Shown here: positions 7,485 through 15,209 of the stretch, piece by piece
Layout: each line of letters starts with the position of its first letter
How positions within the stretch are numbered: the stretch's first letter is position 1
Assembly (NCBI RefSeq): GCF_002025255.2
Contig: NZ_CP054587.1
Coordinates: 2,418,001-2,482,000 of the forward strand
Length of the DNA stretch: 64,000 nt
Direction: 5' to 3'
From: Halolamina sp. CBA1230
GTDB lineage: Archaea; Halobacteriota; Halobacteria; Halobacteriales; Haloferacaceae
Made by a program: the position numbers and the translations under genes
Notes under the pieces: generated by a model
The model's database searches: none
Told to the model about the DNA's origin: nothing
Seen by the model: the letters and a program-made list of their open reading frames with translations, nothing else

Positions 7485-7556
7485 GTCCGGGCTGGGGTAG
7501 TGGTATCCTTCAGCCTTGTGGGGGCTGAGACGCGGGTTCAATTCCCGCGCCCGGAC
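7485..7556 (+). tRNA. tRNA-His(GUG)
   Basis: Complete cloverleaf: G-1 at 7485 faces C73 at 7556. The acceptor TCCGGGC pairs with GCCCGGA, the D stem is GGGT/ATCC, the anticodon stem CAGCC/GGCTG carries loop TTGTGGG (anticodon GTG at 7518-7520), and the T stem is GCGGG/CCCGC with loop TTCAATT. The G-1:C73 pair is the histidine identity element and is genome-encoded here. CCA is not encoded. Confidence 0.95.
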
Positions 7557-7593
7557 CTCGTTGTCTCCGAGCAACTACGCGAGGAGACACGAG
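7557..7593 (+). repeat. Hairpin directly after tRNA-His
   Basis: CTCGTTGTCTCC and GGAGACACGAG pair with one bulged T. The arm starts immediately after the discriminator base, as it does behind tRNA-Pro. It may assist 3' trailer processing or termination, or be an end of the repeat element that follows. Confidence 0.6.
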
Positions 7594-7604
7594 TCCATCG
7601 GTAA

Positions 7605-7732
7605 GGGATTGAACCCTGCCAGTCGCGCGCAGCGAACGAGGCGGGACCGAAGGTCCCGCTGGCAGCCGGGCGCAGCCCGGCGACGAAGTGAGCGAGCACG
7701 TCTGGCTCCGGTTCAATTCCCGCGCCCGGACC
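7605..7732 (+). repeat. tRNA-His 3'-end mimic unit 1
   Basis: The unit begins with an inverted T-arm (GGGATTGAACC, 7605-7615) and ends with a 23-nt exact copy of the tRNA-His T-arm/acceptor end (7710-7732). Between them lie 7611-7640 and 7687-7714, identical to contiguous sequence in the unit behind tRNA-Pro. They are separated here by a 46-nt block (7641-7686) made of two perfect hairpins (GCGGGACC-GAA-GGTCCCGC and CCGGGC-GCA-GCCCGG) plus six bases. No ORF of substance. Confidence 0.75.
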
Positions 7733-7736
7733 TTCT

Positions 7737-7845
7737 GGCTGTGAACGAACGTGAACAGCCGAAGGTCCGTCGAAGGGAATCGAATCAGGGAGTGGAGCGA
7801 GCGAAGCGAGCGGAACGACCGTGGTTCAATTCCCGCACCCGGACC
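7737..7845 (+). repeat. tRNA-His 3'-end mimic unit 2
   Basis: A hairpin GGCTGT...ACAGCC (7737-7760; loop GAACGAACGTGA), flanked by near-complementary CGGACCTTC/GAAGGTCCG, is followed by a degenerate inverted T-arm (GGGAATCGAATC, 7775-7786). Next comes a GAGCGAGCGAAGCGAGC stretch, then a second 23-nt copy of the tRNA-His 3' end at 7823-7845 with a single G-to-A change. Confidence 0.7.
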
Positions 7846-7952
7846 TTTTCCTGCGAACGAAGTGAGCAGTGAAAAGTCTGCCAAGCGGGGATTGAAGCAG
7901 GGAACGAAGTGAGCGACGCGAACGGAGTGACCGTGGTTCAATTCCCGCGCCC
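7845..7952 (+). repeat. tRNA-His 3'-end mimic unit 3 (truncated)
   Basis: A hairpin CTTTTC-CTGC/GCAG-T-GAAAAG (7845-7876) with loop GAACGAAGTGA is followed by an inverted T-arm-like GGGGATTGAAGC (7887-7898) and two more GAACGNAGTGA blocks. A third T-arm copy (7935-7952) then matches 18 nt of tRNA-His before diverging in the acceptor strand. It is the most decayed unit of the array. Confidence 0.65.
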
Positions 7953-7969
7953 CCGTTCGTTGGCAGTGA

Positions 7970-14995: not shown

Positions 14996-15068
14996 GGGAC
15001 CGTGGGTTAGCCTGGTATACTTCGGGCCTTGGGTGCCCGTGACCTCGGTTCGAATCCGAGCGGTCCCA
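14996..15068 (+). tRNA. tRNA-Pro(UGG)
   Basis: Complete cloverleaf of 73 nt: acceptor GGGACCG/CGGTCCC, anticodon stem CGGGC/GCCCG with loop CTTGGGT (anticodon TGG at 15030-15032), T arm CTCGG-TTCGAAT-CCGAG, and discriminator A. CCA is not encoded. It is followed by a hairpin and one 3'-end mimic. Confidence 0.95.
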
Positions 15069-15121
15069 TTCTGGCGACGCAACGACGAGGAGCGATAGCG
15101 ACGAGTCCGCGTCGCCAGAAT
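15068..15121 (+). repeat. Perfect 13-bp hairpin abutting tRNA-Pro
   Basis: ATTCTGGCGACGC (15068-15080) and its exact reverse complement (15109-15121) enclose a 28-nt loop. The first arm starts on the discriminator base of the tRNA, so the stem would form right at the RNase Z cleavage point of the precursor. Confidence 0.75.
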
Positions 15122-15128
15122 GGACTAT

Positions 15129-15209
15129 GGATTCGAACCCTGCCAGTCGCGCGCAGCGAACGAGAGTGAGCGAGCACGTCTGGCTCCGGTTCGAATCCGG
15201 GCGGTCCCA
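15129..15209 (+). repeat. tRNA-Pro 3'-end mimic unit
   Basis: A perfect 11-bp inverted repeat, GGATTCGAACC (15129-15139) and GGTTCGAATCC (15188-15198), flanks an inner sequence. The unit ends with a copy of the tRNA-Pro acceptor end up to 15209 (one mismatch in the T stem). Inner positions 15135-15192 are a 58-nt block that also occurs, split by a 46-nt insert, behind tRNA-His. From 15210 to 15386 nothing else can be supported. Confidence 0.75.

Follow-up and report, generated by a model that had tools for sequence, protein, structure and literature searches.

Repeats with an RtT-like architecture, probably structured tRNA trailers, behind tRNA genes of haloarchaea

The unit behind tRNA-Pro and the array behind tRNA-His

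The window, a stretch of 64,000 nucleotides, is part of the main contig of a 3.47-Mb haloarchaeal genome. It contains a tRNA-Pro gene that is directly followed by a repeat unit of 141 nt, inside which there are no genes. The unit opens with a hairpin (hairpin A); next come an inverted copy of the tRNA tail (I) and a core hairpin, and 21 nt that repeat the tRNA 3' end in direct orientation (D2) complete it. A tRNA-His gene in the same window is followed by three such units in tandem. The positions of the features in the window are:

14996..15068, + strand: tRNA-Pro(tgg), found by ARAGORN and as Rfam tRNA
15048-15068, + strand: D1, the last 21 nt of tRNA-Pro, from GTTC to the discriminator
15069-15209, + strand: Pro unit, 141 nt, directly 3' of tRNA-Pro
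15069..15120, + strand: hairpin A (TTCTGGCGACGC ... GCGTCGCCAGAA), from the tRNA 3' end onward
15121..15139, + strand: I, the tRNA 3' end in inverted orientation, partly degenerate (TGGACTATGGATTCGAACC)
15140..15188, + strand: core hairpin (CTGCCAGTCGC ... GTCTGGCTCCG) of family a; its stem II covaries across haloarchaea
15189..15209, + strand: D2, the tRNA 3' end repeated in direct orientation (GTTC to discriminator) with one mismatch
15129..15198, + strand: I-core-D2 hairpin, 86.4 bits with covariance model R1 (the sequence is itself in the R1 training set)
7486..7557, + strand: tRNA-His(gtg), found by ARAGORN
7557..7731, + strand: His unit 1, core of the same family as in the Pro unit, extra tandem hairpins in the core loop, D2 identical at 20/20 positions
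7732..7844, + strand: His unit 2, core of family b, D2 identical at 19/20 positions
7845..7956, + strand: His unit 3, core of family b, D2 identical at 16/20 positions

The arms of hairpin A (15066-15080 and 15109-15123) form 15 bp with 100% complementarity, 3 bp of which lie within tRNA-Pro; the perfect hairpin abutting the tRNA, for which an earlier note on this DNA had claimed 13 bp, is thus present and slightly longer. D2 matched the tail of tRNA-Pro at 93% across 27 nt. The fold of the whole Pro unit had an energy of -79 kcal/mol (z = -7.0 against shuffles). The ends of the core are weakly inverted (AGTCG/CGTCT), and its borders have no empty sites to define them. In tRNA-Pro itself (15044-15068) the T-stem carries a double change, CTCGG/CCGAG versus CCCGG/CCGGG in six congeners; the sequence of the congeners is kept in D2.

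The Pro unit and His unit 1 have two inner segments in common, GAACCCTGCCAGTCGCGCGCAGCGAACGAG (30 nt, 15135-15164) and AGTGAGCGAGCACGTCTGGCTCCGGTTC (28 nt, 15165-15192), just as the earlier note had reported. An insert in the core loop, at 7640-7690 of the window and in the first unit behind tRNA-Leu(taa), consists of two tandem perfect hairpins (GCGGGACCGAAGGTCCCGC TGGCA GCCGGGCGCAGCCCGGC). Similar tandem hairpin pairs recur in other arrays, as if hairpin loops receive hairpins.

Occurrence in the genome and across Halobacteriales

For the extent within the genome, 42 tRNA loci were read downstream. The plan D1-A-I-core-D2 was found behind Pro, His, Gly, Val, Leu, Lys, Arg, Ser, Thr, Met, Phe and Tyr tRNAs, including some intron-bearing tRNAs, and double or triple arrays were present at His, Val, Leu, Lys, Arg and Phe tRNAs. 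By a strict test, 19 of the 43 tRNA genes of this genome had the unit plan. Among 102 unselected tRNA loci of this genome and two congeners, a copy of the tRNA's own tail was located at most 320 nt downstream in 46 (19/43 in this genome), while tails of foreign tRNAs matched in 0.3% and an own-tail copy upstream was seen only once. Units thus follow roughly 40-50% of the tRNA genes sampled. What the earlier note had taken for a pair of units at tRNA-His and tRNA-Pro is instead a genome-wide and order-wide family, and its observation of host-specific ends on a shared core was correct and applies to the units in general.

A covariance model, R1, was built on the I-core-D2 hairpin. R1 gave 29 matches in this genome, 27 of them within tRNA-linked arrays, and pointed to a unit behind tRNA-Pro(cgg), a tRNA missing from the Rfam tRNA search list. 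The two remaining matches had no intact tRNA in front. On contig C1, at ~1016725-1016790, D1, I and D2 for the tail GTTCGACTCTCGTCCCA are present with no ARAGORN tRNA in front, and this unit is possibly an array that lost its tRNA. No Rfam family was found to match the haloarchaeal units or the dispersed hairpin elements described below.

The survey pattern GGAWTYGAA-N(42-70)-GTTCRAWTCC was present in 109 of 146 Halobacteriales genomes and 47 of 56 genera, with 0 matches of a reversed control pattern; a phylum-wide draw outside Halobacteriales gave nothing credible. R1 had matches in 42 of 44 good-quality Halobacteriales genomes, with up to 38 per genome. Haloarcula, Halorubrum, Halorussus, Halobium and Natrialba are among the carriers identified by name. 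Nearly every D2 in the 29 loci inspected first, which covered many isoacceptors, was a close copy of the tRNA immediately upstream. Matches of the short pattern in a virus collection were mostly due to chance, and R1 confirmed one contig only, IMGVR_UViG_2597490240_000003, where a hairpin (positions 1103-1163 of the fetched locus) matches on both strands (32.8 bits).

Folding, customization and history of the units

In 24 aligned hairpins, 95% of the pairs in the structure were standard pairs. Double-change cells amounted to 39, compared to 14.2 +/- 2.3 in shuffled hairpins and at most 8 in slid controls, and the covariation score was 0.249, compared to at most 0.079 in slid controls. For 58 distinct hairpins, stem II paired in 0.755 of cells, and in 0.534 +/- 0.021 when halves were swapped. 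The orientation of the units relative to the tRNA is fixed: among 134 units, the hairpin-loop motif occurred 141 times in the direction of the tRNA and 10 times in the opposite one, and the sense RNA folded better (lower MFE) than the antisense (p = 9e-5). Covariation and strand bias thus show that selection acts on the sense strand in its folded form. Judged from these sequence comparisons, this molecule is most likely a transcribed structured RNA; single-stranded DNA could in principle also give rise to a strand bias.

The same data bear on a reading in which the units are functionless, quasi-palindromic by-products that replication slippage and template switching leave at strongly transcribed tRNA genes and that gene conversion through the T-loop then spreads. 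Template switching combined with T-loop microhomology would be expected to yield inverted copies, arrays and shared cores. The fixed orientation, the strong compensatory change in stem II, the seemingly better preservation of D2 than of the remainder of the unit and the near-universal presence in good genomes all speak against it, and we regard this origin as quite improbable.

The inverted TTCGAAT, on which the earlier note had relied, is by itself weak evidence that I is customized to its host tRNA because TTCGAA is palindromic, and an ungapped comparison of whole I also indicated weak customization. In a gapped test, the host-specific flank of I did fit its own tRNA better than other tRNAs (p = 5e-9), with a modest effect. 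D2 lacks CCA and was therefore copied from DNA or a precursor, not from mature tRNA.

Taken together, the Pro unit is probably a copy of a haloarchaea-wide, tRNA-linked family of structured, RtT-type repeats that would act as a co-transcribed, structured tRNA trailer. The tRNA transcript would read through a weak U-tract into the unit and tRNase Z would cut after D1, so that the freed A-B RNA, or else the unprocessed precursor, may represent the structured trailer. I could serve to shield the spare tail (D2), which might otherwise rival the genuine tail in pairing with the 5' half of the tRNA. In the predicted fold of tRNA and unit together, the acceptor strand of D2 was able to pair with the 5' strand of the tRNA, which makes such tail competition physically plausible. 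Selection for pairing, or template switches that correct the palindrome, may keep the inverted copy in agreement with the tail.

The history of the units was followed by comparison of orthologous loci, for which congener loci were taken in bulk from 3 genomes. Many units were common to orthologous loci of congeners. Hairpin A was often retained where the core family had changed between congeners, as at tRNA-Ser(gga), and at tRNA-Ser(tga) the unit was lost and remnants were left. The order of units across congeners was A-B, A, B and B-A' at tRNA-Val(tac), and X-Y, Y-X' and Y-X-Y' at tRNA-Phe, a pattern that recombination between repeats, with deletion of units from longer arrays, would produce. 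Read from these comparisons, arrays would lengthen and shorten through recombination between the repeated tails, and cores would be swapped via GTTCRAATCC, a near-universal T-loop sequence present at both borders of the core. Such an exchange would by itself produce a shared core with host-specific outer ends, with no need for a dedicated capture event.

At the orthologous tRNA-Pro of one congener, a short palindromic unit was followed by a remnant of the Pro hairpin A; the Pro block is therefore old at this locus. No clean empty sites were found at the congener loci, where loci without a unit usually keep remnants, and a scan of the genus around one tRNA-Glu yielded no clean pair of occupied and unoccupied sites, since the genes with and without a unit are apparently different paralogues. 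Within arrays, the tail copy nearest to the tRNA matched it better in 15 of 16 informative cases (p = 2.6e-4).

These observations have to be weighed with the modular nature of the core. Identical cores were found at different tRNAs and in different families, and a 38-nt core of one genus recurred at 92-100% identity in intergenic nested-hairpin elements away from tRNAs. Dispersed elements of this type, roughly 200 nt in length (AAAGGGGCCGCCCGCTCGC ... GGCGAGCGGGCGGGGGCTTT), contain the core module in six genomes. In Haloquadratum, small mobile repeats that insert into palindromes have been described (PMC3119063); together with the dispersed elements, this indicates that modules of such type move. 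The tRNA-linked scaffold is older than the core modules within it.

The entire unit could be considered a non-autonomous mobile element (SMR- or MITE-like) that targets tRNA 3' ends, duplicates ~21 bp (D1/D2) and acquires the inverted copy through template switching. Besides the shared cores, the dispersed elements and the Haloquadratum repeats, the polarity of the arrays, with the tRNA-proximal copy as the youngest, is in line with this reading. Most units are orthologous and old, however, a full-length version with a transposase was not seen, losses leave remnants, a clean empty site was not found, and the small mobile repeats of Haloquadratum insert without target duplication (PMC3119063), unlike D1/D2. 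We therefore consider a mobile element of this kind rather unlikely. The earlier note had proposed a mobile cassette combined with sequence capture from its target: the modular composition is supported by the shared and dispersed cores and by orthologous units that have the same hairpin A and other cores, whereas a recent insertion is not. Mostly old vertical arrays, core swaps, unit loss, polar decay and the lack of clean empty sites weaken the idea of a recently mobile cassette, and the situation in relatives largely, though not wholly, corresponds to the old, vertically inherited spacer without empty sites that the note had named as grounds for refuting its proposal.

Two arrays in this genome were interrupted by inserted DNA. 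At tRNA-Asp (contig C1, ~2542900-2544400), an insert of ~850 bp separates the tRNA from two intact units and ends in a duplication of integrase type, ~42 nt that span the tRNA from its anticodon arm to its 3' end. At tRNA-Thr(cgt) (contig C1:90500-93600), the array is seemingly split by ~2.2 kb of other DNA, and the unit preserved on the far side has a degenerate tail copy and a hairpin A that is almost identical. Interrupted arrays, and direct repeats of the tRNA 3' end, which are typical of attachment sites, would fit remnant attachment sites from viruses or plasmids that had integrated at tRNA 3' ends. The tRNA-Asp locus largely refutes this origin: its duplication starts in the anticodon arm and lacks I and a core, and the two intact units beyond it show that the units predate that integration. 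As no integrase was tied to the units either, we consider an attachment-site origin highly improbable.

Comparison with RtT and other known systems

The design was previously known from the RtT repeats of E. coli (RtT RNA or tyrT 178-bp repeats; RF00391, rttR). Behind E. coli tyrV lie three repeats; the last 19 nt of each reproduce the tRNA-Tyr tail perfectly and have an inverted partner upstream. Customized tail copies also occur behind proK and lysV and within the argQZYV spacers. Rfam scores the tyr, proK and lysV copies as RtT. In the RF00391 consensus the closing stem is formed by the inverted and the direct tail, and it also contains GAGCGAAGCGAG, a loop motif common in archaeal cores. 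RtT repeats and haloarchaeal units therefore resemble each other in their location directly behind tRNA genes, in their tandem copies, in the direct copy of the upstream tRNA 3' end that closes each unit (18-19 nt in RtT) and in the closing stem of inverted and direct tail. RtT is customized for Tyr, Pro, Lys and, by sequence, Arg. In contrast to RtT, the haloarchaeal units are found behind the large share of tRNA genes given above, have a separate hairpin A, start at the T-loop and lack CCA.

RF00391 had no match above the gathering cut-off in 40 haloarchaeal genomes (the E. coli control was positive), and R1 recovered none of the E. coli RtT units; the link is therefore architectural. Five weak RF00391 matches in haloarchaea were discarded, as their loci had no ARAGORN tRNA. 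On this sequence basis the haloarchaeal units would form an RtT-like archaeal family outside the RtT sequence family, related to RtT by homology or by convergence. In the literature searched, mostly without subscription journals, an earlier description of such units in haloarchaea was not found. A possible but doubtful wider interpretation is a tRNA-templated, self-customizing system, in which an activity in haloarchaea adds hairpin units at tRNA 3' ends with the tail copied both directly and inverted, creating polarized arrays, and in which the same logic arose independently in enterobacterial RtT.

A reading of the units as substrates of the splicing endonuclease (bulge-helix-bulge) was considered and set aside. 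A circular-RNA survey of Haloferax lists only introns, rRNA precursors and one 5' UTR (PMC7714728).

The preferred reading, a structured tRNA trailer, can also be placed next to other repeats. The SMRs and PATEs of Haloquadratum walsbyi are likewise short palindromic haloarchaeal repeats, and SMR-A elements insert into palindromes as the haloarchaeal core lies inside one; SMRs have no target duplication and target IS605-type elements (PMC3119063), whereas the units are tied to tRNA 3' ends and flanked by the ~21-nt direct repeats D1 and D2. Attachment-site duplications likewise place a direct repeat of the tRNA 3' end behind the gene, but the one at tRNA-Asp has no inverted copy and no core hairpin, involves a longer segment and has integrated DNA in between. 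REP/BIME sequences are also short, repeated extragenic palindromes, yet REPs are not customized to a neighboring tRNA; E. coli RttR RNA has been listed as REP-containing (PMC12306157). For RtT, an old and poorly understood feature of E. coli, the haloarchaeal units supply a very extensive counterpart in archaea. That so many tRNA genes are followed by one suggests a general role, or a general mechanism that operates at tRNA 3' ends. The processing of haloarchaeal tRNA trailers, the competition between spare and real tail, and the way in which a repeat stays matched to each host tRNA in both orientations now become testable.
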